This document shows, piece after piece, positions 8,647 through 33,238 of a stretch of 33,238 bases of DNA (its first letter is position 1; each line of letters begins with the position of its first letter). The stretch lies in contig JAHXHR010000028.1 in the NCBI GenBank assembly GCA_025656505.1, positions 1 through 33,238 of the forward strand, written 5' to 3'. Made by a program: the position numbers and the translations under genes. Under the pieces are notes generated by a model, which saw only the letters and a program-made list of their open reading frames with translations, did not search any database and was not told the DNA's origin. This stretch comes from Candidatus Thiodiazotropha sp. (ex Epidulcina cf. delphinae) (GTDB lineage Bacteria > Pseudomonadota > Gammaproteobacteria > Chromatiales > Chromatiaceae).

Positions 8647-11600
8647 AAGCCGACTGGTCATTACTGCTATTCTTCCCCTGTTGATGGGAGTGGCGGTGGT
8701 TGGGCTATTTTTCTGGGAATCCGATAAATCCAATGAATTCTCCCGGCAGCGGCTGGTTGTCGGACAGATTGCCAAGGCGGTTTTCGAACTCACTTTGGTT
8801 GGGCACGAATACCACACGGAAAACAGCATCCTTCGCACCAAGACTCAATGGCTGAAACGCTATCAATCCTTGCCGCTGCTGTTTCAAGAAACCCGATTCC
8901 AGTATCAAGACAACATTCAATACCTAGCGAGGCTGATGCTTACTCATCAAAACCTTGGCTATCTTTTTTCCAGATTGAAGCAGGCGCGTGATAACCCGGA
9001 TGTGCGGGGAGAAGCAAACAGGGAGTTGGTCACTATGCTGTCGGGTCAGATGCGGTCGAAACTGCATGAGATGTTGGCATATACGGATCGTCTCGTTCAT
9101 TCTATTGCTCAGAAGGAAAAGGAGCTTAACCGCCAGACACGCCTGTATGCGCTCATTTCGGCAGGATTGATTGCCGCTTTGAGCGCCCTGTCCTCATGGT
9201 TTATCAGCATGGGCATCCTGAATCCCGTGGCAAGGCTGCGCCTGGGTGCGGAGATTGTCGGCAAGGGCGACCTCTCGTATAAGGTGGGTAGCGGCGCGAA
9301 AGATGAAATCGGTGAGCTGTCTCGCGCCTTTGACGCCATGACCGACAACCTGCAACAGGTTACCGCCTCCCGTGAAGAACTGAGCCATGAGGTGAAGTTC
9401 CGCAAACAGATACAACGGAATCTGGAAAAAACCTCCGAGCAACTCAAACACAATCATGCGCTTATTCATGGTATAGAACGCTTACGCGACCAGTTCATAC
9501 AGGATGCCGATCCTTTCATCATGTTCGATAATCTGCTTCGGGAAATACTTGACCTCACCGCTAGCGAGTTCGGATTTATCGGTGACATCCTTCATGATAA
9601 AGAAGGCGATCCATACCTGAAAGCCTATGCTTTCACCAATATAGCCTGGGATGAAGAGAGCCGGAATTTCTATGAGAAAAACAAAGAGACCGGCTTCATT
9701 TTTAAAAAGTTGGATAACCTTTTCGGCCGGGTCATCACTTCGGAAAAAGTGGTAATCTCCAATGATCCGAAGCATGATCCCCGCGCCGCCGGCATCCCTC
9801 CAGGACACCCGGCACTCCGAGCATTTATGGGCATTCCCATCTATTACGGCGATAGGATGGTTGGGGAGATCGGCCTGGCCAATCGGAGCGGAGGTTATGA
9901 ACAGGCCATAAAGACTGAACTGCAACCCATCCTTGATGCCTGCGGACAGATTATAGTTGCCCGCCTGGACCGGGTGGAGCACCAGCAGGCGGAGAGATAC
10001 CGTCATGATAACGAGAGGCGTCTGAAGATGCTCATGGATCTGAATAAAGATGCCCGGCTGCTGGAGGAGAAGGAAATGCTGGAGCGTGCGGTTGATGTGG
10101 CCGTTGAGGCGACATACAGCAAGGTCGGCTACCTCCACCTAATCGACGATGACCAGGAAACACTCCACTTGTCCAGTTGGAACCAAGAGGCAATAAAACA
10201 GTGCCGTACGGAGCATGAAAAACACTATTCCATATCCGATGCCGGTATTTGGGCGGATACCGTTCGCTTTAGGAAAACGGTTGTACACAACGATTTTACC
10301 GATCAGGAAAAGCGCAAGGGGTTTCCCCAAGGACACTTGCCCCTGCTGCGCCACATGAGCACGCCCGCTATCGACCGCGACAAGGTGCAAATGATCATCG
10401 GTGTAGGGAACAAGGAAGAGCCCTACGATGACAATAATATCCAGCAACTGGAATTGGTCGCCCAGGATGTTCTGAAGATCTTTATCCAGCGGCAAGCCGA
10501 ACAGGGTCTGCGTGAGGCCAAGGAGAGCGCCGAGATGGCCAACCAGGCCAAGGGCAGTTTTCTGGCCAATATGAGCCATGAGATCCGCACCCCGATGAAC
10601 ACCATCATCGGCATGGGCTATCTCGCGCTTCAAACCGACCTCTCAGAAAAACAGCGTCATTACATCGAAAAGATCAATGCATCGGCCAACAATCTCCTCT
10701 GTATCATCAACGATATCCTGGATTTCTCCAAAATCGAGGCAGGGAAACTTGAATTGGATTTGTCCCCCTTTGATCTGGATGAGGTGCTGAAGTTACTGAG
10801 AGACACCACCCTGGCCAAGGTTGGGAGCAAGGAGATCGAAGTGCTTTACTCCGTTCCCCCGGCCATTCCCCGCACCCTGGTCGGTGATCCGATCCGCCTG
10901 GGCCAGATACTCACCAACCTGTGCGACAACGCGGTCAAATTCACGGATCGCGGGGCAATTGTCATCAGCATCAAAGAGGTAGCCTCACATACAAAATGGA
11001 TTACGCTGCAGTTCTCGATACGCGACACCGGTATCGGTATGAGCGAGGAGCAGATCAGAAAACTTTTCGGTCCCTTTCAACAGGCCGACAGCTCCACCAC
11101 CCGGAAATATGGAGGCACCGGTTTAGGTCTCAGTATTTCCCTGGATCTGGTGGAACTGATGGGTGGAGGCATGACAGCTATAGGCAAGCAGGGAGAAGGC
11201 GCCGAGTTCACCTTCACCGCAACATTCGGTCTGCGGGAAAAAGACAAGGAGGATAGCCTGATTATACCGCAGAATCTTATGGGCTTACGTATCCTCGTGG
11301 TTGATGACAATAGGGATGCCTGTGAGATCCTGCAAACTTTGTTGACCTCATTATCTTTCGAGAATTCCGCTGCATCGTCAGGACCGAAAGCGCTGGAAGA
11401 GCTGGAAAGAGCGTCTAACGCCGATGAGCCCCCTTACAGGCTGGTCCTCATGGATTGGAAAATGCCTGGGATGGATGGTGTGGAGACCAGTCAAAGAATA
11501 CGGAAGCATCGGTTTGTTACAGACATTCCCATCATTATCATGGTGTCCGCCTTCCATCGTGATGAAGTGATGCTTCAGGCAGAAGAGTCCGGTTTGGGGG

Positions 11601-18364: not shown

Positions 18365-19762
18365 CTAATATTCATTCATTTCGCTGTCGATATCTATGTC
18401 ATGATGAGGAATTAATCCATACTGACGAATCAATCGACGCAACCTCGGCCTCGAAACCCCAAGTATTTCGCAAGCTTGGCCTTTGTGCCAACCCGTTGCC
18501 TCCAGAACACGTTTGACATGCACGCGCTCGATATCTTCAAGGCTTTGTTCAGTCAGCGGTTTGTAATCCCTATGGTGGCATATATTGCGCAATTTTTCTG
18601 CTCTCAAGGGCTCCGGTAGCTGATCCCTGGTCAAAGAGTCGCCTTGAGACAGGGCAATACTCTTCATCAGTATATTCTCAAGTTCTCGAACGTTACCCGG
18701 CCACTCATAGTGTTCAAATGCTTCCAACACCTCCTTGGTAATATGCGTAACATTACGATGCAATTCCTTATTGATCCGCCCCAAAAGGGTCTGAATGAGA
18801 TCCATTAGATCCTCTTTACGTTCACGCAAGGGCGGCAGATGGATATTGACCACCTGCAGCCGGTAATAAAGATCTTCACGAAAGGCTTTTTCGCTAACCT
18901 TTTCCGCCAGATCAACGTTGGTCGCTGTAATTACCCTGGCATCGGTGGTTTGAGACTTTTCGGCTCCCAGCGCGGTGAACTCTTTATACTGTAAAACCCT
19001 CAGCAACTTGGCCTGCATACCTAACGATAGTTCTCCAACCTCATCCAGGAAGATTGTTCCACCCCGGGCCAAGGAAAACTTACCCTCTTGACGAACCACC
19101 GCACCTGTGAATGCGCCTTTTTCATGGCCGAACATGTCCGATTCAAGCAATGTCTCCACCAAAGCCGCACAGTTGACGGCCACGAATGGACCACTGGGGT
19201 TTTGCCCCGAGCGGTGGATGGCTCTCGCAACCAATTCCTTACCTGTACCGGATTCGCCGGTAATCAAAACCGTAGCAGGACTTTTTGCCACCAAGCCGAT
19301 GGTCTTGAATATCTCCTTCATGGCTCGGCTGCGGCCGACCATGCTCAAGATGTCACCAATATTTTCCGGATTGGTGGGGATAAACAGGTTTTCCGTATCC
19401 TTTGTCGTGGTCAATAACCGGGTAATGGAAGTATCCAATTCATCGATATCGATCGGTTTGTGAATATAATCTTCCGCACCCTGTTGCATGGCTTCAATCG
19501 TGCTGTCCATATCATGGAATGCGGTGATCATAATCACATGTACATTCGGTAATAATTTCTTGAAGTCCTGAAGGCCCTCAAGCCCGGAACGTCCCGGCAT
19601 GCGTATATCGAGAATAATCAAATCGGGATGCTGTGTGCCTGTAATTGCCAGGCCTTCATCCACACTACCGGCAATTTCCACATCATGATCCTGGCTTCGT
19701 AAATGAAACTGAAGTGTCAGGCAGCTAGCCTTATCGTCATCAACAATCAATATCTTGCTCAT
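18365..19762 (-). CDS. Sigma-54-dependent NtrC-family response regulator
   Basis: This 465-aa protein activates sigma-54 promoters on phosphorylation. REC ~1-120 has the acidic pair DDDK and phospho-Asp52 in LDIRMPG. The AAA+ domain ~145-380 has Walker A GESGTGKELVARAIH, the sigma-54 contact loop GAFTGA (216-221) and Walker B GGTIFLDEVGEL. A Fis-type helix-turn-helix lies at the C-terminus (GQACEILGVSRPRLRRLI). All residues for activation are present. It overlaps the preceding kinase gene by 4 bp (ATGA), its obvious partner. It is the last gene of the minus-strand operon and the probable activator of the sigma-54 promoters at 31941 and 32245. Confidence 0.92.
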   Translation of the reverse strand: MSKILIVDDDKASCLTLQFHLRSQDHDVEIAGSVDEGLAITGTQHPDLIILDIRMPGRSGLEGLQDFKKLLPNVHVIMITAFHDMDSTIEAMQQGAEDYIHKPIDIDELDTSITRLLTTTKDTENLFIPTNPENIGDILSMVGRSRAMKEIFKTIGLVAKSPATVLITGESGTGKELVARAIHRSGQNPSGPFVAVNCAALVETLLESDMFGHEKGAFTGAVVRQEGKFSLARGGTIFLDEVGELSLGMQAKLLRVLQYKEFTALGAEKSQTTDARVITATNVDLAEKVSEKAFREDLYYRLQVVNIHLPPLRERKEDLMDLIQTLLGRINKELHRNVTHITKEVLEAFEHYEWPGNVRELENILMKSIALSQGDSLTRDQLPEPLRAEKLRNICHHRDYKPLTEQSLEDIERVHVKRVLEATGWHKGQACEILGVSRPRLRRLIRQYGLIPHHDIDIDSEMNEY

Positions 19763-22368
19763 GAGACCATCTCCTGAATGATCGTAGCATTATTATCCAT
19801 ATCAATTTGATGCCTGACAGGTATTACAACGGTGACACAACTCCCTGAAGGTATGTTTTGTGTTACAGATATGTTTGCCTGATGCTGGTCAAGAATACGT
19901 TTGACGATCGCCAGGCCGAGTCCTGTCCCCTTTGCCCATGTAGTAAAAAACGGCTCAAAAATCTTATCCCTCTCCTCTTCGATGACGCCACAACCGTTAT
20001 CACTGATTTCAACCCGGATCGCCGTACCCTCCATGCCCAATTCCAACATCACATCGATAACCACCATCGGGTCACTGCTGGATTCAGTGGCCTGGGCCGC
20101 ATTCGATATCAGATTGGAGAATACTTGTCTCAGTTTTGTTGCGTCGGCATGCAAGGTAGGCAAACCCGGATGATAATTGGTGATCAACTTAATCTTGTAT
20201 TCATCGATTCTTCGCTGAGACAGACTGATTGACATATCGATGATCTTATCGATGGTAAGCCATTCCAGTTTCAGTGCATCCGGCCGGGAATAGGTGAGCA
20301 TATCCGAGAGAATCTCTTCCATATAGCGGATCTGCTCAAGTGAGGCATTGCATAGTCCTTTCACTTCAGCATCGACATCCATATCCAACTGCTTACCCAG
20401 AATCTGAAGAGTCATTTTTACCGATGAGAGGGGATTGCGAAGATCATGGGCGATCATGCTCGCCATCCTGCCCATGGCAGCCAGGGTTTCAGAGCGCGCC
20501 AGATCCCTGTTTTGTTGCTCCACCTCTGATTCAAGTCGCTTACGCACAGTAATATCCTCCTTAACTGCCAGAAAGTGGGTTATTTTTCCCGCTGTATTTC
20601 TTATTGCCGAAATAACCGCCCCTTCCCAGTAGAGTTCTCCGTTTTTTCTCCGGTTATGGAATTCGCCACGCCACTCACCTCCCTCTAATACCGTATTCCA
20701 TAAACTTTTATACTCTTTCTGACTGGTTTCACCGGATTTCAGAAAACGCGGGTTTTGACCAAGCACTTCTTGCGATTCATAACCGGAGACTTCGGTGAAT
20801 TTTGGGTTTACGTATTCGATAAGGCCATGATCATTGGTAATGATAACTACACTTGGACTCTGCTCCACTGCTTGATAGAGCTTCAGTAAATCCGTTTCGG
20901 CCTTACGCTTGTCTGTAATATCTTCACCAATACCGGTAACACCAATCACATTGCCGTCAGTATCATAGGAAAGTGTGTTATTCCATGCTATTAAACGCCG
21001 CCCACCACTCTTTATCTTTACCTTATTTTCATAGCGCCGTGGAAATCTATCAGGATTTCCGATTTGTTTAATTATCTCACCGATCTCATCAGCCAGTTCA
21101 TCGGGAACAAACTGCTGTAACCAGTTTCGGCCGATGACTTCGTTTTTATCCCATCCTGATATCTTGAGGAAATAGTTGTTACAGAATGTCACTTCTCCAT
21201 TGAGATTGATCGTCACTGCCGCCAGTTCTATATGCTCAAGGGTATATCTGAAGCGTTGTTCATAGTCTCTCTGGGCCATCACCGCCCGGCGATGTTGTTG
21301 TGAATAGGTCAATAGCCATGCAACCCCGGCAACCAATACAAACATTGCGAAATAGAGCGCATAGTGATTCTGTATAAAGAAGGATAACGTAGCAGAGAGT
21401 TCACGTGACGAGACGCGGGATATGATTTTCCAATAATATCCCGTCCCGTCATCACTGCCTACACTATCCCCATGGAATGGCAAGGTTCCCATTGCCGCAA
21501 TCAATGGACGAATGGTGGTAAAGGTATAAAGACCACTATCCGTCTGTATCCGGCCTTGGTCTTTCTCTGTGATTTTCATCCACTCATAGGAGTTGTCCGT
21601 CTGAAATCGGGCGTCATGACCCAGCATGAACCCCCATTCATCTTGCTGCCTTGGACTGCTCAGCCAATAGCCGTCATCGTTCACCAGTTCTATGTGATCA
21701 GCGATGTTGGCTGCGGCCCTGGTGAAGTTTTGAATCAGGCGATCACCCAAGTAGTTCAACAAAACAATCCCGCGCTTTCCCCCCTGACTGTCAAATACCG
21801 GTGTGCCGAAACGGATTACAGGCTTTAACGGATACTCGATTTCCCCCTCTTCCATGTTCAAATCGAATGGAGAGAGATATATATGCCCCCTGCCCAATAA
21901 CAGCGCTTCTTGAAAATAGTAACGGTTCCCTTTATTCTGCAGTTCCGATTCGGATACGACCTTGCTCTCTCCATGCGAGCAGTTGACTCGCACAACTTCC
22001 ATGCCCGTACTATCGATATATCGAATCTGATCATAGAACCCTTTGTTTTTCGCAAAGACCTTGAATTCTTCCGAGATTCTTTGTTCTTTGGCCCATGGCA
22101 GTGCTTCAGGCAGACCTCTACGTTCTATATGTTCTGCGAGAAATAGCAAATCGCTGACCACATCGGCGATATCCTTCTCAATCATCCGCCTGGCTAGATC
22201 GACATTGAGCAGTTCCCTCGACTCAACCGAAGAGCGCTCAGTGGTATAGAAGGTGTAATAATGCATCGCACCGATAATCATCAACACCAGACACATGGGT
22301 ATAAAAATAGCCGTGAAGCCCTTCAGCATTCCTAGACGGGTGACCGATGGTGGGTGCATTATCGGCAT
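19759..22368 (-). CDS. PAS-domain sensor histidine kinase
   Basis: This 869-aa inner-membrane kinase has membrane segments at ~16-38 and ~337-358 around a large periplasmic Cache-like sensor (YIDSTGMEVVRVN, then the paired FGTPVFD strand). Two PAS domains follow (~370-485, ending in a GIGEDITDKRK-type linker; ~495-610 ending VKEDITVRKRLE), then HisKA with phospho-His641 in MIAHDLRNP and an ATPase domain with NLISNAAQA, DNGCG and GTGLGLAIV boxes. It is of the NtrB/AtoS-like class that pairs with NtrC-type regulators. The second PAS resembles NifL/Aer-type redox sensors, but no cofactor residue can be read with certainty. Its start overlaps the preceding small gene by 10 bp. Confidence 0.9.
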   Translation of the reverse strand: MPIMHPPSVTRLGMLKGFTAIFIPMCLVLMIIGAMHYYTFYTTERSSVESRELLNVDLARRMIEKDIADVVSDLLFLAEHIERRGLPEALPWAKEQRISEEFKVFAKNKGFYDQIRYIDSTGMEVVRVNCSHGESKVVSESELQNKGNRYYFQEALLLGRGHIYLSPFDLNMEEGEIEYPLKPVIRFGTPVFDSQGGKRGIVLLNYLGDRLIQNFTRAAANIADHIELVNDDGYWLSSPRQQDEWGFMLGHDARFQTDNSYEWMKITEKDQGRIQTDSGLYTFTTIRPLIAAMGTLPFHGDSVGSDDGTGYYWKIISRVSSRELSATLSFFIQNHYALYFAMFVLVAGVAWLLTYSQQHRRAVMAQRDYEQRFRYTLEHIELAAVTINLNGEVTFCNNYFLKISGWDKNEVIGRNWLQQFVPDELADEIGEIIKQIGNPDRFPRRYENKVKIKSGGRRLIAWNNTLSYDTDGNVIGVTGIGEDITDKRKAETDLLKLYQAVEQSPSVVIITNDHGLIEYVNPKFTEVSGYESQEVLGQNPRFLKSGETSQKEYKSLWNTVLEGGEWRGEFHNRRKNGELYWEGAVISAIRNTAGKITHFLAVKEDITVRKRLESEVEQQNRDLARSETLAAMGRMASMIAHDLRNPLSSVKMTLQILGKQLDMDVDAEVKGLCNASLEQIRYMEEILSDMLTYSRPDALKLEWLTIDKIIDMSISLSQRRIDEYKIKLITNYHPGLPTLHADATKLRQVFSNLISNAAQATESSSDPMVVIDVMLELGMEGTAIRVEISDNGCGVIEEERDKIFEPFFTTWAKGTGLGLAIVKRILDQHQANISVTQNIPSGSCVTVVIPVRHQIDMDNNATIIQEMVS

Positions 22369-22691
22369 TGTTTATCTATATGTTGCTGTAATCTCTCGAT
22401 ATAGCCATCCTGGCTCTCATCGTTTTGGCGAGGCGCCAGAAACATCAGTCTGGCGGCAATGATATAGGGTTTACGATCTCCATCACCTGCGGGCTGTTTC
22501 TCATTCAATATCCGTTTAACACGCCCAATGACACCGTCTGGATACTGACAATATCTTGGCATAGTGACATACTCGCCATACCACTGCGCCGCTATGGAAA
22601 TTAATAATAATATCAATAGGATAACCAGAATCAATCTTAACGGTCGAAACGGGGTTTTCCTCCCTGCCTGTGGGCTGTCTGTATTAACCAT
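22359..22691 (-). CDS. Small single-pass membrane protein, unknown function
   Basis: This 110-aa protein has one membrane segment (LRLILVILLILLLISIAAQW, ~18-38) with a basic N-terminal side, which predicts an N-in topology. The periplasmic part (~40-110) has two cysteines, YCQYPD and a C-terminal KQCR, which might form a disulfide. I do not recognise a family. It lies between the HemY-like gene (13 bases) and the sensor kinase (10-bp overlap), so it may belong to the signalling unit. ATG 22691 has GAAGG directly before it, too close to be ideal. Confidence 0.65.
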   Translation of the reverse strand: MVNTDSPQAGRKTPFRPLRLILVILLILLLISIAAQWYGEYVTMPRYCQYPDGVIGRVKRILNEKQPAGDGDRKPYIIAARLMFLAPRQNDESQDGYIERLQQHIDKQCR

Positions 22692-22704: not shown

Positions 22705-24111
22705 TCATCTTGCCAACACAAATGACAGTTCCCGTGGTGAGAATTGCGCGCTTGATTTCAGTTTAACAGCTATCTTTTGAGCCAGTTGCCGACCTTGAAA
22801 TATACGTTCTCTTACCGACACACCGTTTTGATAATTAGCATTAAGATAAAGACCAGGGAGCGTTCTTATCATGTTCTCAATTTTCTCTAAGCGCGCTTGA
22901 TACCGACCATGATAGAGAGGAAGTCCTTGGTAATGCCTATCAACCCGGATGTAGTTCTCTGACCCTTTTATTCCAAGCAGTGGTTTCAAGTCAGACAAGA
23001 CCAGATCCGCTAATATTTCATCACTTTGATCGACCTGTTCCGGATGACGCGCTCCGCCCAGATAGGTAGTCAACAGCGTATTCTCACTCGGCGCTCTTTC
23101 CGGGAATAGGCGGCTCATCCACAGGTTGCCGTTGAAAGAAAGACGGTTTTGACCGGAAACGAGGAAACCCGTGCCATCCAACGGATGGTTGATGCTGCCG
23201 CTTTCGATGCCGATGTGCAAGACGGCAATGGGCGCATACGCAATTTCCGCCAGTAATTGACTCAGGGATTCATCGACAGGTCTTAGCAGATCGGCAGCGA
23301 TATCCGCCGGCGTACTCACCACCAGATGAGGTATGGATATCTGATGCTGAACCCCCTCTTTTCCGGCCGTTACCTGCCAATAGTCCTGATATTTCCTTAC
23401 CGACCCGACTCGCATGCCACATCGCAGCGTCACACCTGATGTATCCGCCAGGGCATTGACGAGATCAGACATGCCCCCGGTAAATGAGAAGGTATCCGCC
23501 TTATTCACCCTGCGACGCTTCAGGACACGATTGATCAGCATGCCCACGGTAAGGCTGCCATAGCGCTGTTCAAGCGCCTTGAGCCTAGGCAGCACCGAAC
23601 GAGCCTCAGCCAGGTCCGGATCAGATGCCAGGGTGCCTGCAACGAAGGGATCCATGGCGGTATCGAGAATTTCCCGTCCCAGGCGGCGTTCTATGAAAGT
23701 GGAGACCGTCTCATCCTCCTGACGGCTCCTCGGAATCATAATCTCCGTAATCAAGCGCAGTTTTGTGAAGAGACTCCAGAGTGGCGAAGCGAGCAGTGCC
23801 GGCATCAGCATAGGCGCCTGAATCAATTCGCCGTTATGCACCACATAGCGGTTGAGCGTCTCGTCACGCAGTCGTTTGCTGTGTGACAGACCTGTCTGCT
23901 GAATCATCTGATCAACCTCATTTCTGAAATTCACCAGTAATCCGGCCCCCCGCTCCGTGGTATAGCCTGCTTCAGTGGTAGTGCGGATTTTTCCACCAGG
24001 CCGTTCATCCGCCTCCCAGACCTCTACTGAGACACCCTGCTGCGCCAGCCACCAGGCCGTTGACAGGCCGGAAATGCCTCCGCCGATAATCAGTACGGCA
24101 GTCTCTGTCAT
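22705..24111 (-). CDS. hemY: HemY-like oxygen-dependent porphyrinogen oxidase (FAD)
   Basis: This 468-aa flavoprotein has the N-terminal dinucleotide-binding motif IIGGGISGLSTAWWL, the E at VEVWEADERPGGKI that contacts ribose, and a C-terminal FAD segment of the LYLNANYQNGVSVRERIFQGRQLA type. HemY oxidises protoporphyrinogen IX to protoporphyrin IX (or coproporphyrinogen III in Gram-positive types) with O2. Length fits (usually 450-480). Its placement next to a radical SAM protein with tetrapyrrole-type repeats suggests a dedicated tetrapyrrole task. It may serve general heme synthesis, or act on another porphyrin-like substrate. It overlaps the radical SAM gene by 4 bp. Confidence 0.8.
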   Translation of the reverse strand: MTETAVLIIGGGISGLSTAWWLAQQGVSVEVWEADERPGGKIRTTTEAGYTTERGAGLLVNFRNEVDQMIQQTGLSHSKRLRDETLNRYVVHNGELIQAPMLMPALLASPLWSLFTKLRLITEIMIPRSRQEDETVSTFIERRLGREILDTAMDPFVAGTLASDPDLAEARSVLPRLKALEQRYGSLTVGMLINRVLKRRRVNKADTFSFTGGMSDLVNALADTSGVTLRCGMRVGSVRKYQDYWQVTAGKEGVQHQISIPHLVVSTPADIAADLLRPVDESLSQLLAEIAYAPIAVLHIGIESGSINHPLDGTGFLVSGQNRLSFNGNLWMSRLFPERAPSENTLLTTYLGGARHPEQVDQSDEILADLVLSDLKPLLGIKGSENYIRVDRHYQGLPLYHGRYQARLEKIENMIRTLPGLYLNANYQNGVSVRERIFQGRQLAQKIAVKLKSSAQFSPRELSFVLAR

Positions 24112-26147
24112 TTTCGCTGCAACTCCGCCTTCATCTTTGCAAGCATTTCCCGGTCTAACAGACCGAGTCCACCACCATCCGGATCCTGTTTGGATTCCAC
24201 ATAGTGTCGAATCTCTGCGAAACGTTTCTCTGCCTGAAGGTTCTCTTTCAAACGTGGCACACGCTCTCTGGCAATGGCGAAGGCATCGAAATTCAGTTCC
24301 TGCATGCCGAAACCCTTCATACGGCGAACCGCCTTCATCATCGCCCGGTTGCGAAACCGGGTCAGATCCTCTGAGGTGATACGTGCCAGTCCCTCGCTAC
24401 GGGCGCTGAATTCAGCGGCCTTTTTGACACCCCCACGGATAAATTCAGGCGCCGATTCCACACGTTCGAGTGCATCTCTCTCCCACGCCACACCGGCGAG
24501 TCCGGTCTGTACAATTTTTCCAACATCATCAATGGAAACGACAATGGCGCCTCGACGATTAGCCTCTCGCTCGGCGGCTGCTTCCATAGTGGGTTTAACA
24601 AACAGTTGAACCTGAGGTGGTCGATCAGCCAGACCCTCTGTCAAAAGGATTTCGGCAGCGGACTCCCAAGGGAGTTTACGACCCGGTGTATCTTCTTCCT
24701 CCAAACGATGCATGAGTTTAATATTCACTTCCAGGTGACCCTCATTGCGTGCGACATCCTCAGCGACTGCGAACACACCTTCACGCAGAAATCCCGGTAG
24801 TTCATCGAGATAGGCTCTGGCCTCCTGGGTCCAGGCAAGACCGCTGGTGGAAAACTTTACGAATGTCTTTGTTTGATCGCCCTCGGCAGTGGCGGGCCGC
24901 TTACCAGGAAATTTGTCGCCAAAACGTTTTGCAGCCAAGGTGGCCATGTGCCCAGTGGTGACTATAGGCTCACCCAGTTCGCTGACATAGGACTCGGCAC
25001 GTTTACGCACCATTTTACGCAGAAAACCCGGTACACGAGACAAACGCTGTTCGGCCTCAGGACTCCAGGTCAGCAACGTATCGGGGTTGTCGCTCATCGG
25101 TTCGATAAGCGGCTGACCGGAGGGATAATGACCGCACCAGAGATCGGTATCCATCAGCGTGCCGCCCATTGCGAGCGGGCGTGCCCGACAGCCGCCGCAC
25201 AGCTTCTGAAATTCGCACTTGCCGCACTTACCCTCAAGCTTAGGATTGCGCAGCAGTTCAAAAGTTGACGTTTGCTCCCATATGTCCCAAAAGGCTCGTT
25301 CTCGAATCGAGCCTTCTTCATCCGGGATATAGGGACAGGCCGTCACACCACCTTCCGGTGTGATCCGGCAATAGTGGATACCCGCCAGACAACCACCACC
25401 CTCATACCCCTGAGCCCGGGTCATTGTGGATTCTGGATTCGCCTGGTAGGCCACCCGTTTAAAATGGGGTGCGCAGCGAGCACGCACAATCAGATCCGTT
25501 GTCTCTTCCTGGACCTGCACCAATTGTGAAAGCACCTGCTCATAGCGGGCGGGGGTGATATCCGACATGGATTCCCCCCGACCGGTGCAGACCAGGAAAA
25601 AGATATTCAACACATGGGCGCCCACCGCTTTGGCAAAGTCGATCATCGACCCTACTTCATGGGCATTCTTTTCCGTAACCGAGAAATGGACTTGAAAAGG
25701 GAGATCATGCTTGCGGCAGTGGTCCATGCCGGCCAGAGTTTTTTTCCAACTCCCCGGACAGCCGCGAAACCTATCGTGACTTTGGGGATCCAGGGAATCG
25801 AGGCTGATCCCCACTCCCATGGCGCCGGCCTGCTTCAGCATCCCGACCCGATCTTCATTGAGCAGCACACCATTGGTGCCAATGACCATCGAGAGTTCCA
25901 ATCCACTGCCATGAGCAACCAGTTGTTCCAGGTCTCTACGCAACAGCGGTTCACCACCGGTTAAAACCACCATGGTTTCATTATTACGTGAAGCGATCTC
26001 ATTGAGTAACTGCTTGACCTCCTTCGTACTCAGCTCGTCATTTCCTCCAGCCCGGCGTGTATCGGCATCCATATAACAGTGTGCGCAGGCCAGGTTGCAT
26101 CGACGTGTTAGGTTAACGGCCAGCAGAAAAAGATCGCCGGCACTCAT
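24108..26147 (-). CDS. Radical SAM/SPASM protein with three C-terminal PCP_red-like repeats
   Basis: Residues ~5-215 are a radical SAM barrel with the cluster motif CNLACAHC (Cys17, 21, 24) and GGEPL for SAM binding. A SPASM-type cysteine cluster follows (CGKCEFQKLCGGCRARP and a later WCGHYP), able to bind extra Fe-S clusters. The N-terminus (NLTRRCNLACAHCY) resembles NirJ/AhbC/AhbD-type enzymes that modify hemes. Three repeats follow at ~362-415, ~440-490 and ~556-605, each starting W(S/T/E)xEA... and holding PxFxR and a later A-rich helix, the form of the PCP_red domain at the end of BchB/ChlB. It overlaps the stress-protein gene by 4 bp. Its substrate is unknown; a tetrapyrrole is my inference. 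Confidence 0.82.
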   Translation of the reverse strand: MSAGDLFLLAVNLTRRCNLACAHCYMDADTRRAGGNDELSTKEVKQLLNEIASRNNETMVVLTGGEPLLRRDLEQLVAHGSGLELSMVIGTNGVLLNEDRVGMLKQAGAMGVGISLDSLDPQSHDRFRGCPGSWKKTLAGMDHCRKHDLPFQVHFSVTEKNAHEVGSMIDFAKAVGAHVLNIFFLVCTGRGESMSDITPARYEQVLSQLVQVQEETTDLIVRARCAPHFKRVAYQANPESTMTRAQGYEGGGCLAGIHYCRITPEGGVTACPYIPDEEGSIRERAFWDIWEQTSTFELLRNPKLEGKCGKCEFQKLCGGCRARPLAMGGTLMDTDLWCGHYPSGQPLIEPMSDNPDTLLTWSPEAEQRLSRVPGFLRKMVRKRAESYVSELGEPIVTTGHMATLAAKRFGDKFPGKRPATAEGDQTKTFVKFSTSGLAWTQEARAYLDELPGFLREGVFAVAEDVARNEGHLEVNIKLMHRLEEEDTPGRKLPWESAAEILLTEGLADRPPQVQLFVKPTMEAAAEREANRRGAIVVSIDDVGKIVQTGLAGVAWERDALERVESAPEFIRGGVKKAAEFSARSEGLARITSEDLTRFRNRAMMKAVRRMKGFGMQELNFDAFAIARERVPRLKENLQAEKRFAEIRHYVESKQDPDGGGLGLLDREMLAKMKAELQRK

Positions 26148-28483
26148 CGATACTGATCCGGATTGGATTCGGAGTGAAAACCACTACCCAGCCGCCAGCT
26201 CTCGCCGGCCTTTTCCACCGCTTCCCTATTGACGACTTCCAGACCGAGTTTCCGGGCACAGCGTTCCACCTCCAGCATGACCATACCACGCACAACTTCT
26301 GGAATTCGCTGCATGCGGGCCTTCGCTTCCTCATCCCATGCCATACTGGGGGTCTGTTTCGATGATCCGGCAGACCACTCGGCATATTTCTCTTCCACCA
26401 GCGCCAAAGAGATATCCTTCAGGCCCTTTTTACCGGCATAGGTCTCAATGCGCTGACGCGTAAGGTCGCGCATGAATCCTTCAGGTACACGCATAAGACG
26501 GGCCAAGGCAGCCGCCTGCCAGTTGAAATCATCGGTTATGGGTTGTGCCTGTGTGGCCTTTTCAGCACCATGCACTTGGCTTCCGGGATCGGAAGGGTCG
26601 AGGTGGAACACCCCTCGCTGCTGCCACTGAGTCTTGACCGCACCCTCCGTTTCCAGCTCTGATGACGTTGTTTTGTCGCTACCGTTTGACGCTTTACCCA
26701 GACCGGCAAAGGGACAGGCACTCTCCTCCCTGGACGATTCCGGCTGTTGGTCACTCTGCATGTGCAGCATCGCTTTACGGGCCTCTTCCAGGCCGGCCTC
26801 AGCCGTATCGAGACTGATCTCGGAAACACCCTGCTGTTGCGCATAAGTCTCGATGCGCTGCCTGCAACTATCACGCATAAAGCCCTCTGGTACACGCATC
26901 AGGCATGCAAGCGCGGAAGCATGCCAATGGAAATGGGGGGGGGAGACGACCTTTTCATCCTGAGGTGACAGGGATGGTTGGGTCGTTACAACAGACGCTT
27001 TCCCTTGTACCGGTCTATCATCGTCCAAAAAACTTTGAATATGCGCCGCTTCGACCTGACGGCTACCGGCAGCGCGCGCTTTTTTCTCAGCCCGCATGCT
27101 GAGATTGCCCCGTAAACTAAGATCATCGATGCCCAGCAGCAATTTTGTTGCTGCCTCACTCCAGCGTATCGCCGCCTCGGCATCCGGTTTGCGCTTTAAT
27201 TCACCACGATCATAGGCTTCGACGATCTCTGACATCGCCTGTTCGGCATGCCCGGGCATGAGTTGCGCGGTGGCCTCTTCAACGATACTTTCAGTGATCA
27301 CGGTATGACCTTTTTCCTGGGCATACCGAAGAATCGCCATCCGCGCCATACTGCGAACGAATGAGGGAACCCGCTCCATACGAGCTTCTGCTTCATGGGT
27401 CCAGGAGGTGGATACTGATGCGAGGCGATCAACCTGAGGCTTATGCTCACGTTGACTCAGCAATACGGCACATGCCGCGTCATTCAGCAGATACTCACTA
27501 TTGCCGCCAATATCCAACGCACTGTCTGCATGGATACCCGTGGTGCCCAACACCAGCAGTGATGGTTTGACATCCAACAGATAGCGATTGATCACTTCGT
27601 GGGGCTTGCCATCAAGGAGCACTGTTTCAATCTCCATTCCCCAATCATTGGCAATCGACTGCGCTACGGCTAAGTGTCCCTGATAGATTTTCGCTAATCC
27701 GGAATCAATGATCTCTTCATGGAGTTTTTCCTGTTCCTTGAATTTGAACACCTCGCCTGCTTCATCCGAAAGGACGCCGGCAATCCGATTGAAGGCAACA
27801 TAATGGTAATAGGGATCGAAGGCGGAGACCACCTTCAGCTCAACACCCCAGGCCTTAGCCATTGAAAGCGCAGTCAACAGCCCACCGTAAGACTTGGCTG
27901 AACCATCAATACCTACAACGATTGGTCCGTTTTTAAGTGATTGGGTGGGACTCTTGATAATTAGCGTATCGATGCGGGAACGGCGCGAAACCCGTTGGCA
28001 GACAGTGCCAAGACGACTGCCTTTTACAGCCCCCAGTCCCAAGGCGCCCATTACCAGGAGATCGTAGTGACCGCTGTTGGTCTCATGTACCAACTCACGG
28101 TAGTTTTTACCTTCCAACGACCGTCTTGCGACGGGGATAGAGGCATCTCCGGCAGTATGATCCACTTGATCGAGATAGGAGTCTGTAATAATGGAGAGTC
28201 CTCGGGTGATCAGATCGTCATGCACATCCCGTTGACGCTCAAGCTCCTGCTCTTCTCGAAACGGCTCCGGCAGTCCTCCCTCCATTTGACGGAAACGCAG
28301 ATCATGTAATTTTGCCGCATAAACATGAGCGGCTGTAAGACGGCTTTTGAACAAGCCGGCCAGGTCCACGGCTTCAATAACACCACGGTTTGCATAATCC
28401 GAAGAGTCTACCGCCAATAAGATCGATTCATAGCCCGGTAGTGAGTCAGACGCCTGTTTCTCTGTACGAACCTGTGCGCTCAA
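26144..28483 (-). CDS. Tandem universal-stress protein with five PCP_red-like repeats
   Basis: This 779-aa cytoplasmic protein joins two UspA domains (~18-180 and ~188-350) to a repeat region. The first Usp domain keeps an ATP-binding GxxG-x9-G(S/T) motif (GALG...GT), and the second has a variant (GTTG...GG). Five PCP_red-like units follow at ~357-415, ~440-490, ~518-573, ~648-700 and ~708-757. Units 3 and 4 are close copies (LMRVPEGFMRD and QRIETYA in both), units 1 and 5 keep the RVPSFVR/RIPEVVR core, and unit 2 is worn. Linkers are polar and probably disordered. The start is TTG 28483 with AGAGG upstream. I know no defined role for this combination; it may act as an adaptor for the radical SAM partner, which has the same repeats. 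Confidence 0.8.
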   Translation of the reverse strand: MSAQVRTEKQASDSLPGYESILLAVDSSDYANRGVIEAVDLAGLFKSRLTAAHVYAAKLHDLRFRQMEGGLPEPFREEQELERQRDVHDDLITRGLSIITDSYLDQVDHTAGDASIPVARRSLEGKNYRELVHETNSGHYDLLVMGALGLGAVKGSRLGTVCQRVSRRSRIDTLIIKSPTQSLKNGPIVVGIDGSAKSYGGLLTALSMAKAWGVELKVVSAFDPYYHYVAFNRIAGVLSDEAGEVFKFKEQEKLHEEIIDSGLAKIYQGHLAVAQSIANDWGMEIETVLLDGKPHEVINRYLLDVKPSLLVLGTTGIHADSALDIGGNSEYLLNDAACAVLLSQREHKPQVDRLASVSTSWTHEAEARMERVPSFVRSMARMAILRYAQEKGHTVITESIVEEATAQLMPGHAEQAMSEIVEAYDRGELKRKPDAEAAIRWSEAATKLLLGIDDLSLRGNLSMRAEKKARAAGSRQVEAAHIQSFLDDDRPVQGKASVVTTQPSLSPQDEKVVSPPHFHWHASALACLMRVPEGFMRDSCRQRIETYAQQQGVSEISLDTAEAGLEEARKAMLHMQSDQQPESSREESACPFAGLGKASNGSDKTTSSELETEGAVKTQWQQRGVFHLDPSDPGSQVHGAEKATQAQPITDDFNWQAAALARLMRVPEGFMRDLTRQRIETYAGKKGLKDISLALVEEKYAEWSAGSSKQTPSMAWDEEAKARMQRIPEVVRGMVMLEVERCARKLGLEVVNREAVEKAGESWRLGSGFHSESNPDQYR

Positions 28484-28650: not shown

Positions 28651-29394
28651 TTATTTGAATGTAAAGTCGACCGTTGCAGTTCCGCCCGCATCGACTTTCA
28701 CCTTCGCCTTCTGATTCTTCAGCATGCCATGCCACGCCTTGATGGTGTATGAACCGGGAGGCACATCGCTAATGGTGAAGGTGCCGTCCTCAGCCACCAT
28801 GGCGAAATAGGGATTCTTCGCCACAAAAACAAAACCATGCATGAAATCATGGGCGTCGCACTCCACTTTGATGGCCGGCCCTTTTTTCATTTTGATGGTA
28901 TTCGTGACAGTACCTGGATCAGGCTGACTGATATTTGTCAGGGTCTTTTTCGGACCCTTGGCATCACCGCGAATCAGCTCATAGGTGTGGATATTGTGCA
29001 ACACAGGATCAGCGTTGACGGCTGAAAGTTTACTCTTGTTTTTCATGACTTGAAGAAACGGCTTGAACTCACATCCCTTCTGATCGATGCTGGCATCGCC
29101 CACATCCGCCTGGAAGGGTTTACCCTCCTTCACTTTATCAAGGTAGACAACCGTATCCATCAGATGACCGTTGCTGACGCGGACATAGTCGATTTCCCTC
29201 TTACCCGTACCACAGACATCGTTGTCTTTCGTAATGCTGTAGACTTTTGGGTTCTTGTCCTTGCCGGAAAATTTCACACTACCGGTAATCGTACCTCCAT
29301 TGCTGACAGCTCCCTCTTTATAGGCGGCTGCGTGACCCACGGACGACAGCGCGCAAAGGCTTGCCAGACTGAGGTAAATAAGTAATTTCTTCAT
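28651..29394 (-). CDS. Secreted cupredoxin-like protein with carboxypeptidase-regulatory-like end
   Basis: This 247-aa protein has a signal peptide (residues ~1-23, VGHA|AAY). The mid part looks like a cupredoxin: a His in LHNIHTYEL and CDAHDFM (C-x2-H-x2-M) resemble type-1 copper ligands, though the Met spacing is shorter than in plastocyanin. The last ~45 residues (DGTFTISDVPPGSYTIKAWH) form a carboxypeptidase-regulatory-like beta domain. AGGAG lies 8 nt upstream of ATG 29394. Periplasmic electron transfer or copper delivery is plausible. It follows the HEAT gene by 29 bases and precedes the 43-aa membrane peptide. Copper binding is inferred from the motif only. Confidence 0.75.
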   Translation of the reverse strand: MKKLLIYLSLASLCALSSVGHAAAYKEGAVSNGGTITGSVKFSGKDKNPKVYSITKDNDVCGTGKREIDYVRVSNGHLMDTVVYLDKVKEGKPFQADVGDASIDQKGCEFKPFLQVMKNKSKLSAVNADPVLHNIHTYELIRGDAKGPKKTLTNISQPDPGTVTNTIKMKKGPAIKVECDAHDFMHGFVFVAKNPYFAMVAEDGTFTISDVPPGSYTIKAWHGMLKNQKAKVKVDAGGTATVDFTFK

Positions 29395-29423: not shown

Positions 29424-31898
29424 TCAGGCTGCCTGTCCAGACTGCGCCTGATCCGGGTTGAGTATCTCTTCAATCATTTCGATATACACACTGCGTTTCA
29501 CGCTGTCTTCCGCCATCTTCAAATGCGCCAGCAACGTACGGTGGCTCAAAGCAGGACCGAATCCACGTAGCGCCCGGCCGATCAAACGTGCTTCTTCACC
29601 GGTGAATTCACTGACACTGGCTACAATCTTTTCAACGGCGCGCTGGGTCAGCGTTTCATCTTGGATCTCCGGCATTACTTTCGAGAGTGCTTTGGTCGCT
29701 GCAACCCGAACCCCGATATTGTCATCATTCAGGCACTCCAGAAGTTTTCTCGCCACGCTGACGGAAGGAACGTCCCGTACAACCATATGTCCGGCCTCTG
29801 CGGGATCAAGACTGTCACAGGTGAGCCTGGCAAGGCTATGGATGGCTTCTATTCGCACATTGGCTTGTCTGTCCTTCAGCGCCTCCATCAGCGGCGCCAG
29901 CGCCGAGCGGTTTCCGAGAAAACTCAAACTTCGGGCACAGGCAATCTTCTGCTCAAAGTCACCTACTGACAGTTGGGTAATGAGCATTCCCACCGCATCC
30001 ATCAATTTTGGATTTCCTCTATTGCGCTGTGCAATTTCACCAATCGCTTCAGCCGCTTCCCGACGTATCAGGTCATCCTCATCGTTCAATGCCTGAATCA
30101 AAGCCCCAATTGCAGTGTCATCATTGGCTGCCGCCAACACTCTTGCGCCCAACCGGCGCACATCCTGATCCGGTGTGAAGCGCTTACCGGCGCGGATGCG
30201 TCTCATCTCCGCCTTATTGGCTTCCACTACATCGAGATACTCTTGTGTCGCTTCATCTATCTCAGGCATCTGTTGCGCTGACTTGTCCTTATCAAGCATG
30301 GCCTCGACATTCTCCATGGCGATAGCATCGAGCGTCGAAACGGCAGGCGATACTTCGCCGACTTCGACAATCTGTGCCGGCGCATCAGGCAGCTTAACAG
30401 TCTCTGCCATCCGCTGAGGAACGGGGATTTCATCTATTTCAGGATCGGCTGTCGATTCAGTAGCATGTCTCTCCGTGTCCGTATCAAATTCAACCACAAC
30501 ACCATTTTTAACCCTGCTTTCCGACCCTGCATCTTGCTGCTGAGCCATTCCGGCATCTCCGGATACAATCTCAGATGCGGTTTTTTCCGGCACTCGTATA
30601 TTGCCGTTCACCGCATCAATGACGATGGATAGCGGCCTGCGAGACACCTCTTTCGCTTCCGCTGAATTTACCTCGACAAACTGTGCATCCAATGCCATCA
30701 AAGTCGTTAGCGCAGCCAACCTGACCGGCTGCTGTGAATCACTGACGGCATTGATCAGCGAATCAATAATCTCATCGGTTATCCGGCCGAACCGGCCGAT
30801 CGCCAGAATCGCTTCACGGCGAACCATGGGGTGACCTTCGCTGTTGTTAACATGCTCAAGCAGAACGGGCATTGCATCAGGATTGTTATTTTCACCGAGT
30901 AACCGACAGGCTGCCGTAGCCGTTTCAGCACGCGCATCATGGGTGCAGGCAACCACCATCTTCAAATTCTCATCCGAGAGCGGATAGCTGCTAACAACCG
31001 GAACAAGCGTGTTTAGCAGGGTAGCCCTTACCTGACTACTGGGATCAGTCAACATCGGCAGCAGCGTTTTCTGCAGGCCGCCGGAGTCAGCAACCCGGCC
31101 CGCCAGTTGGACCACCGCCTTGATAGCGATATTACGAACCTCTTCACTTGAATCACGTAACAGCAACACCAGCGCACCGAGATAGCGCCCTGCTTTTTGA
31201 TTCGCCAGAGCCTGTGCCGCTTCCGCTCTCACTTCGGGATCTGAATCCCGTAACGAGCGCCCCAGCACCTTGACGGCTTTAGATGATCTTGAACCTGCCA
31301 AGGCGCGTACGGCGCGCCGGCGGTGCAGGGCCTTGCTTGATTGATCCTGCAATCGCTCGATCACCCGGTCCAGGCCAACGCCTGAAATAGCAACCAAGGC
31401 GCCTAATACCTCATTTTCAATATCTTGCTGAGCATCGTCATTGATGAAATCGACAAGCGTGTCGACGGCCTCTTCCGCGCCTGCAGCACCCAATGCTTTC
31501 ACGGCTTCCAACTGGATATCCCACCAGGTATCCCAATCCTCATCCCACTCAAGACCTTGTGGACGTTCAGTCAGCACCTTCACGAGCACCCCCACGGAAT
31601 CGGCACTGGTAATCTTACCGAGCGCTTCCGTGACCATGGAACAGACTTCTCCACTGGTATCGTTTTTCAATGAATCAGTCAGTGCAGGCACCGCGTACTC
31701 ATCACCGATCTTCCCGAGGGCTTCTGCAGCGTCAATGCAGACGTCAACATCATCATCCTTGAGCCTGCCTATAAGATATGGCACGGCACGATGGTTGCGT
31801 AGAACGCCCAGAGTACGCGCTGCATAACAGCGATCCGCCTCATCCCCTGACTGAAGCAACTCACACAAAACATCGACGATTTCTTTTTGAAGGCTCAT
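29424..31898 (-). CDS. HEAT-repeat scaffold protein (PBS-lyase type repeats)
   Basis: This 824-aa cytoplasmic protein is almost entirely HEAT-like repeats of about 30 residues, for example RCYAARTLGVLRNHRAVPYL and CIDAAEALGKIGDEYAVPAL. They form two blocks (~1-415 and ~590-800) joined by an acidic, probably disordered linker (~430-590). The alanine-rich helices with central acidic pairs are typical of the EZ-HEAT/PBS-lyase repeat class, which includes phycobilin lyases. Here they suggest protein-protein binding rather than lyase action. No catalytic motif is seen. It is the first gene of the minus-strand operon, directly behind a sigma-54-like promoter, and may scaffold the complex formed by the downstream proteins. 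Confidence 0.82.
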   Translation of the reverse strand: MSLQKEIVDVLCELLQSGDEADRCYAARTLGVLRNHRAVPYLIGRLKDDDVDVCIDAAEALGKIGDEYAVPALTDSLKNDTSGEVCSMVTEALGKITSADSVGVLVKVLTERPQGLEWDEDWDTWWDIQLEAVKALGAAGAEEAVDTLVDFINDDAQQDIENEVLGALVAISGVGLDRVIERLQDQSSKALHRRRAVRALAGSRSSKAVKVLGRSLRDSDPEVRAEAAQALANQKAGRYLGALVLLLRDSSEEVRNIAIKAVVQLAGRVADSGGLQKTLLPMLTDPSSQVRATLLNTLVPVVSSYPLSDENLKMVVACTHDARAETATAACRLLGENNNPDAMPVLLEHVNNSEGHPMVRREAILAIGRFGRITDEIIDSLINAVSDSQQPVRLAALTTLMALDAQFVEVNSAEAKEVSRRPLSIVIDAVNGNIRVPEKTASEIVSGDAGMAQQQDAGSESRVKNGVVVEFDTDTERHATESTADPEIDEIPVPQRMAETVKLPDAPAQIVEVGEVSPAVSTLDAIAMENVEAMLDKDKSAQQMPEIDEATQEYLDVVEANKAEMRRIRAGKRFTPDQDVRRLGARVLAAANDDTAIGALIQALNDEDDLIRREAAEAIGEIAQRNRGNPKLMDAVGMLITQLSVGDFEQKIACARSLSFLGNRSALAPLMEALKDRQANVRIEAIHSLARLTCDSLDPAEAGHMVVRDVPSVSVARKLLECLNDDNIGVRVAATKALSKVMPEIQDETLTQRAVEKIVASVSEFTGEEARLIGRALRGFGPALSHRTLLAHLKMAEDSVKRSVYIEMIEEILNPDQAQSGQAA

Positions 31899-31940: not shown

Positions 31941-31956
31941 AGCAGAATCTGTACCA
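31941..31956 (-). promoter_or_regulatory. Sigma-54 (-24/-12) promoter for the HEAT-led operon
   Basis: The minus strand reads TGGTACAGATTCTGCT. The GG (-24) and GC (-12) pairs are spaced by 10 bases, and TGG.AC......TGCT agrees with TGGCACG-N4-TTGCW. Expected start of transcription is near 31930, about 30 bases before ATG 31898. The operon's own last gene is an NtrC-type activator. Confidence 0.6.
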
Positions 31957-32671: not shown

Positions 32672-33238
32672 ATGAATGAGAGAAGTCTTTCGAATCACCC
32701 GGCTCAATCATCCATATTAAAACATTGGCATCACTTTATATGGGTTGTAACGGCTACCCTGCTGCTGTCAACCGGACTGATTCAAGCGGCGGAAGACACC
32801 GATGCACTTAGCCGTATTTCACCCGTGGGGATCGTGCAGATAGAAGGTGAGCCGGCTATTGAAAAAAGCCTCGTAGCTACGATGAAAGTGGAAACGGCGG
32901 AACCCATTGTCGCCCCGAATCCATCCCCTAGTGACTACCCTGATATTGGGGTCAGCAGTCGCGCTGTAGTCTGGATACTCGCCCAGCTACACCTGTTTTT
33001 TGCCGCCTTGGTGCTGGCAGTCCCCCTGTTTGTATTGACGATTGAACTGCTGGGTGTCTATACCGGCGATGAACGCTATGACAACATGGCCTATGAGTTC
33101 ATGAAAATCAGCCTCACCGGGTTTTCCATTACTGCGATTTTCGGTGGTTCGCTGGCATTGGCGCTGTTTGTACTCTATCCCGATTTCATGGGCTACATGA
33201 TGCATGTATTCGGTGCCCAGGTTTTGGTTTATGCCATT
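32672..33238 (+). CDS. Cytochrome bd (CydA)-like subunit, N-terminal part, runs off the window
   Basis: The frame is open from ATG 32672 (AAGGAAT upstream) to the window end, 189 codons with no stop, so the track missed it. An N-terminal membrane or signal segment (~23-40) precedes a ~50-residue periplasmic stretch that ordinary CydA lacks. Then WILAQLHLFFAALVLAVPLF, GVYTGDERYDNMAYEFMKIS and GFSITAIFGGSLALALF follow the first helices of the CydA family, with His in the first core helix as candidate heme ligand. The usual GTxWxxF-type sequence after helix 2 is not kept, so this is a divergent bd-like branch. Quinol oxidase activity cannot be judged from this part. Confidence 0.65.
   Translation, partial: MNERSLSNHPAQSSILKHWHHFIWVVTATLLLSTGLIQAAEDTDALSRISPVGIVQIEGEPAIEKSLVATMKVETAEPIVAPNPSPSDYPDIGVSSRAVVWILAQLHLFFAALVLAVPLFVLTIELLGVYTGDERYDNMAYEFMKISLTGFSITAIFGGSLALALFVLYPDFMGYMMHVFGAQVLVYAI

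Follow-up and report, generated by a model that had tools for sequence, protein, structure and literature searches.

Why should PCP_red, a domain otherwise known from chlorophyll enzymes, be multiplied in two neighbouring genes of an organism without chlorophyll? The question is raised by a contig of Candidatus Thiodiazotropha sp. (ex Epidulcina cf. delphinae) (GenBank JAHXHR010000028.1, assembly GCA_025656505.1), analysed here as one window of 33,238 nucleotides that comprises the whole contig and breaks off within a divergent cytochrome bd-like gene. A tandem universal stress protein (Usp-PCP) and a radical S-adenosylmethionine (SAM)/SPASM protein (rSAM-PCP) each carry several PCP_red units, and both are encoded with a HemY-type protoporphyrinogen oxidase in overlapping genes of the same direction. 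The explanation favoured here, with about an even chance of being right, is that Usp-PCP and rSAM-PCP belong to a dedicated module supplying or modifying a tetrapyrrole (heme) for a bd-like respiratory complex. The tetrapyrrole context of the repeats as such is strongly supported, since the radical SAM enzyme lies near AhbD and NirJ2, HemY is encoded by the next gene, and the module goes with heme-protein genes from one genome to the next.

Identity and conservation of the PCP_red units

The three overlapping genes and the units within them are located in the window as follows, with bit scores referring to PF08369 unless stated otherwise.

26144-28483, minus strand: tandem universal stress protein, two Usp domains and five PCP_red units; TTG start
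27272-27403, minus strand: Usp PCP_red unit 1 (59.8 bits)
27035-27163, minus strand: Usp PCP_red unit 2, divergent (14.5 bits with Pfam, 48.6 with the rebuilt profile)
26798-26926, minus strand: Usp PCP_red unit 3 (39.9 bits)
26390-26521, minus strand: Usp PCP_red unit 4 (39.6 bits)
26207-26338, minus strand: Usp PCP_red unit 5 (44 bits)
24108-26147, minus strand: radical SAM/SPASM protein of the AhbD/NirJ2-like group, with PCP_red tail
24945-25067, minus strand: rSAM PCP_red unit 1 (53.3 bits)
24708-24833, minus strand: rSAM PCP_red unit 2 (33.5 bits)
24522-24605, minus strand: rSAM degenerate PCP_red-like unit (12.4 bits; unit layout in the model)
24357-24485, minus strand: rSAM last PCP_red unit (39.5 bits)
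22705-24111, minus strand: HemY-type protoporphyrinogen oxidase, 4-bp overlap with the rSAM gene (TIGR00562, 260 bits)

In the Pfam scan, where PF08369 has a cut-off of 32.5 bits, the Usp protein reached 162.1 bits and the rSAM protein 114.6 bits; seven of the nine single units exceed the cut-off on their own, with Usp unit 2 and the degenerate rSAM unit below it. When the units were recounted with a second profile, built anew from the units themselves, all five Usp units scored 48-68 bits, three rSAM units 50-62 bits and the fourth, degenerate one 2.6 bits, and the best score from 1,000 shuffled tails was 6.3 bits, as against 48-68 for real units. By sequence, the count is therefore five Usp plus three rSAM units. 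The AlphaFold2 models (mean predicted local distance difference test scores of 76.5 and 76.8, from 52 and 56 sequences) give the units a layout of short strand, short helix, long helix, short strand and helix, which the degenerate rSAM stretch (about residues 493-548) resembles, so that the architecture amounts to five plus four.

A sequence-only reading of the same DNA had proposed that PCP_red repeats, five on the Usp and three on the rSAM protein, sit on two unrelated core folds encoded by genes overlapping by 4 bp. The PF08369 search confirms the identity of the repeats, the count holds by sequence, the overlap is exact (26144-26147), and the cores, radical SAM/SPASM in one protein and tandem Usp in the other, are unrelated. 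An unrelated helical repeat, which that reading had named as an outcome that would refute it, was not borne out, as the units match PCP_red and are laid out alike in the models. Its further suggestion, that the repeats hold or pass a tetrapyrrole or pair the two proteins, is supported in part, by the tetrapyrrole context. Fold searches with the whole models returned the Usp and rSAM cores only, and nothing on the repeats. On the Usp side, PF00582 matches two stretches with 105.3 bits (cut-off 24), which identifies a universal stress protein, the fold match is 3ab8, and the first Usp domain keeps the ATP-type motif G-x2-G-x9-G-T (G146, G149, G159).

PCP_red occurs at nine places in the whole genome, all of them within the rSAM and Usp genes, which rules out phototrophy or a hidden BchB. 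The match to the BchB family TIGR01278 is limited to its last ~60 positions, outside the nitrogenase-like domain. As the genome lacks BchB, the repeats cannot serve chlorophyll synthesis.

The comparison of residues covered 547 units aligned by unit position. Their common core is a W, then an A, a P, an R following F-V/L/M, and a later A (the P being absent in Usp unit 2), and these core positions are also present in BchB. Every unit position has its own consensus, which indicates that the repeats are old and have been maintained separately. The Usp Trp is invariant in units 1-4 and nearly so in unit 5 among 56 orthologs. In the window, Usp unit 4 closely copies unit 3 (26390-26926), which is not the case in most orthologs, and a remnant of the usual Usp C-terminus (WQQRGVFHLDPSDP) precedes it; together, the copy and the stranded remnant point to a recent rearrangement of the array in this lineage.

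Tetrapyrrole enzymes and a bd-like complex

HemY enzymes oxidise porphyrinogens, and the propionates of iron tetrapyrroles are the target of AhbD and NirJ. The rSAM core scores 308.6 bits against NirJ2 (TIGR04055) and 297.5 bits against the heme b synthase AhbD (TIGR04545), both below the cut-off of 500, and these are its closest families, matched by all 52 rSAM orthologs scanned. Judged by its sequence, the enzyme is thus kin of AhbD and NirJ and a member of neither. Its cysteines C17/C21/C24 and C308-x2-C311-x5-C317-x20-C338 are invariant in 52 sequences, and their spacing is of the AhbD/NirJ type, fitting the NirJ motifs CX3CX2C and CX2CX5CX20-21C (PMC10548856). The adjacent gene product is a HemY protein by TIGR00562 (cut-off 97.85 bits), with 2ivd as closest solved structure (E 2.1e-62). 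Elsewhere, ahbD is co-localised with hemY/hemH/hemQ (PMC10548856) and accompanies hemY in coproporphyrin-type routes (PMC7242693; PMC10548856).

That this HemY is the general protoporphyrinogen oxidase of the organism is unsupported, given that it is absent from 14 members of the genus and that three genomes carry a further oxidase beside it, namely HemJ in G032 and G048 and HemG in G022. At the thresholds used, genus members without the cluster (among G001-G021) have no HemY, no HemJ and, bar one weak match, no HemG; no general protoporphyrinogen oxidase of the genus was found when HemY, HemJ and HemG were looked for.

The tie to the bd-like complex comes from co-occurrence across genomes. 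Of 56 relatives, the same 11 genomes have both the bd-like protein and HemY, and the other 45 have neither; rSAM-PCP is present in all 11, plus fragments in one 40%-complete genome, and Usp-PCP in 10 of the 11. Across 369 genomes of the class, Usp-PCP was found in 14 and the bd-like protein in 16, with an overlap of 14 (Fisher p about 1e-23, shared descent being ignored). In the phylum set (399 genomes), the bd-like protein occurs in four, all four with PCP_red outside BchB; the other 32 genomes with PCP_red include 30 with scores and frame lengths typical of phototroph BchB (annotation not checked singly), the remaining two being G129 and G279. Presence is patchy inside a single genus, and the pattern extends over eleven families. 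Mere adjacency is ruled out as its cause by G032 (HemY and the bd-like gene on one contig, rSAM and Usp genes on another) and G090, in which parts of the module lie on separate contigs: the parts occur together even when unlinked, and the link is more than adjacency.

The remaining features of the window frame the three genes on both sides.

18365-19762, minus strand: sigma-54-dependent response regulator
19759-22368, minus strand: PAS-domain sensor histidine kinase
22359-22691, minus strand: small conserved protein, 110 aa, one hydrophobic stretch, no known family
28651-29394, minus strand: exported protein with a cupredoxin-like C-x2-H-x2-M motif (by eye) and a carboxypeptidase-regulatory-like domain
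29424-31898, minus strand: large HEAT-repeat protein
31941-31956, minus strand: sigma-54 type -24/-12 site TGGTACAGATTCTGCT, sole strict match in the window
32672-33238, plus strand: start of the cytochrome bd-like (CydA-like) gene, divergent, cut by the contig end

Downstream of the rSAM gene, the order is thus HemY, the 110-aa protein, the histidine kinase and the response regulator, and upstream of the Usp gene lie the cupredoxin-like and HEAT-repeat proteins. A sensor kinase and a sigma-54 activator are encoded in the operon itself, and the strict site TGGTACAGATTCTGCT stands 58 bp before the HEAT gene; such sites were found in 12 of 20 homologous HEAT/bd-like intergenic regions, compared with 0.08 expected. 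The site and the activator at the operon end would form a coherent circuit. A PrlF/YhaV toxin-antitoxin pair lies at the left contig end (146-1008).

Beyond the point where the contig ends, the loci of relatives encode the bd-like protein, a cytochrome c, a protein with an ethylbenzene-dehydrogenase (EB_dh) heme domain and three CXXCH motifs, and SCO1. The bd-like protein matches PF01654 over only part of its length and aligns with solved CydA mainly in the N-terminal half; there is no GRQPW motif in the bd-like sequence read, and the conserved neighbour families that were tested include no CydB. A canonical cytochrome bd quinol oxidase would combine a CydA bearing the Q-loop residues with a CydB partner. 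The EB_dh protein resembles, by published descriptions rather than by sequence comparison, the alternative NxrC described beside a bd-like oxidase in Nitrospira, Nitrospina and anammox bacteria. For these bacteria, the function of the bd-like oxidase and alternative NxrC is not known; Nitrospira expresses the cytochrome bd-like complex at a high level, and among anammox bacteria the complex is conserved (PMC6606698, PMC3578206).

Several neighbours vary between lineages. Type II DMSO-reductase-family alpha subunits of NXR-like size are encoded near bd-like and PCP_red genes in three distant loci, of genomes G048, G757 and G545 (L206:8426-11953, L207:2357-5893 and L058:13531-18793, the last also with a beta subunit), and genes for the small and large subunits of a [NiFe] hydrogenase directly follow the sigma-54 regulator in three Thiodiazotropha genomes in all (e.g. 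L051:668-3543). In Gallionella-type loci, a nitrous-oxide-reductase-like protein adjoins Usp-PCP (L194:3964-5739, L112:5819-7609, L116:6819-8651 and others). It consists of a beta-propeller and a CuA-type cupredoxin domain (CSHFCGPLHLEM), has nitrous-oxide reductase 7aq6 as best PDB match (E 1.6e-20) and may belong to the lactonase-type clade III; a pangenome paper reports no nosZ in Gallionellaceae (PMC10734462).

Distribution and competing explanations

When species genomes were scanned, 225 stretches proved to encode a relative of the Usp protein; the 80 loci retained lie in Ca. Thiodiazotropha, Sedimenticola, tubeworm symbionts, Thiolapillus, Thiothrix, Ca. Parabeggiatoa, Gallionella, Ca. 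Ferrigenium, Mariprofundus and others. The hosts of the module are sulfur-, iron- and possibly nitrite-oxidising Proteobacteria. The Usp-PCP_red fusion, which the sequence-only reading had called unusual in its five-unit form, is indeed restricted, yet with at least 80 loci it is not unique. Many of the 81 loci (window included) are cut by contig ends; rSAM-PCP was seen in 69 and HemY in 63. With the same proviso for some of the proteins, five Usp units were counted in 64 of the 80 related proteins and three in 12, and three clear rSAM units in 48 proteins and one in 17, while distant versions have one rSAM and two Usp units. In the tree of the rSAM core (midpoint root, several deep branches long), proteins with three units cluster together and the deepest rows have a single unit, which fits a growth of the rSAM array from one unit to three or four. 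A stand-alone PCP_red frame of ~62 aa (62.5 bits) was met at L192, about 9950-10080 (G129:C107), with the rest of the module not in view. Nothing relevant on PCP_red/PF08369 in such a setting appeared in the open-access literature, so an earlier account may exist elsewhere.

In the proposed module, HemY would oxidise a porphyrinogen (or a side chain), and the AhbD/NirJ-like enzyme would act on the propionate side chains of the (iron) porphyrin so formed. The tandem-Usp protein would be an ATP-binding scaffold or carrier. We infer that the PCP_red repeats dock partners or hold a tetrapyrrole; the units of both proteins could do either or both between the steps, so that a reactive intermediate would be channelled to the bd-like complex instead of escaping into the general heme pool. 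Several observations weigh against this scheme. No ferrochelatase gene appeared in the conserved cluster; the copper proteins, hydrogenase and nitrous-oxide-reductase-like neighbours suggest that the module may serve other ends in some lineages; two genomes, G519 (fragmented) and G614, have a bd-like gene without a Usp-PCP match; the minimal versions with one rSAM and two Usp units imply that many units are not needed for a basic function; and the 547 aligned units have no His, Cys or Met that all of them share, which makes a common iron ligand unlikely and leaves heme-iron ligation by a common His or Cys of the units unsupported.

This last point also favours a docking-only role, in which the units hold Usp, rSAM and perhaps HemY together and are never touched by a tetrapyrrole. 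Many copies on two partners with overlapping genes, and, as is common for scaffold repeats, a copy number between 1 and 5 in an array that was rearranged in the lineage of the window, would agree with it; W, P and R are nevertheless kept in nearly every unit and in BchB, and a separately conserved consensus for each unit position suggests more than generic docking, so that this account is rather unlikely. Similarly unlikely is a conditional coproporphyrin-type route to ordinary heme b, with HemY as coproporphyrinogen oxidase and rSAM-PCP as an AhbD-like coproheme decarboxylase, which would boost heme while cytochromes are being produced for the neighbouring complex. Routes of this kind are known to pair HemY with AhbD (PMC10548856; PMC7242693) and 297.5 bits connect the enzyme to AhbD, but this score is short of 500, no ferrochelatase was seen in the cluster, and the Usp protein, the repeats and the tight tie to one complex would be left unexplained.

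Were the rSAM protein instead a SPASM-type maturase of a peptide or protein, such as a bd-like or copper-protein subunit, its resemblance to tetrapyrrole enzymes would be incidental. The best matches of its core among the PDB matches listed are indeed the SPASM peptide maturases SkfB, PqqE and SuiB; as neither AhbD nor NirJ is among those matches, however, the structural ranking says little, and with family profiles ranking NirJ2 and AhbD ahead and HemY a constant partner, this explanation is distinctly improbable. The idea that the repeats are relics of a former BchB with no present role, to which the degeneration of some units might speak, is largely refuted already by the conserved Usp Trp and by the wide conservation of the repeats in chemotrophs, and can be given hardly any credence.

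A dedicated heme module for the bd-like complex thus remains the preferred reading. A bolder version of it, possible though doubtful, is that HemY and the PCP_red-bearing AhbD/NirJ-like enzyme make, and the Usp-PCP_red scaffold carries, an undescribed heme-type cofactor, the specific prosthetic group of a bd-like/alternative-NxrC complex common to nitrite, iron and sulfur oxidisers. In either case, the module is a partner set with recognisable tetrapyrrole enzymes and a testable handle on the bd-like complex, in which an unusual heme should be sought, and PCP_red gains a second setting besides chlorophyll enzymes.

Comparison with known systems

By sequence, the units belong to the same small domain type as the C-terminal PCP_red of BchB/ChlB in dark-operative protochlorophyllide oxidoreductase (DPOR; solved as 2kru and 2l09), where it helps to bind protochlorophyllide, and the order of secondary structure elements in the models matches; in BchB/ChlB, however, a single unit ends a nitrogenase-like protein, whereas here five and three to four units are found on Usp and rSAM proteins. 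With the tandem Usp proteins TTHA0350 (3ab8), Rv2623 (3cis) and UspE, Usp-PCP shares its two Usp domains, and it differs from them in the five C-terminal units and a conserved insert. The motifs HDxRFRQMEGGLP and ELERQRDVHDDLI of this insert (residues about 53-105, window 28168-28330) are strongly conserved and atypical of Usp domains, and could form a binding site.

Like AhbD and NirJ/NirJ2, rSAM-PCP has a radical SAM/SPASM core, the cysteine motifs and a co-located porphyrin oxidase gene. Unlike them, it scores under every equivalog cut-off and carries a PCP_red tail, and its locus has no ahb or other nir genes beside it. Finally, the neighbouring complex shares with the cluster of Nitrospira, Nitrospina and anammox bacteria a bd-like membrane protein, small cytochromes c, an alternative-NxrC-like subunit (c-type hemes plus a heme b EB_dh domain) and, in the three distant loci, the type II DMSO-reductase-family alpha subunit, but in contrast to that cluster as published, it is found here in sulfur and iron oxidisers and is tied to HemY, rSAM-PCP and Usp-PCP.

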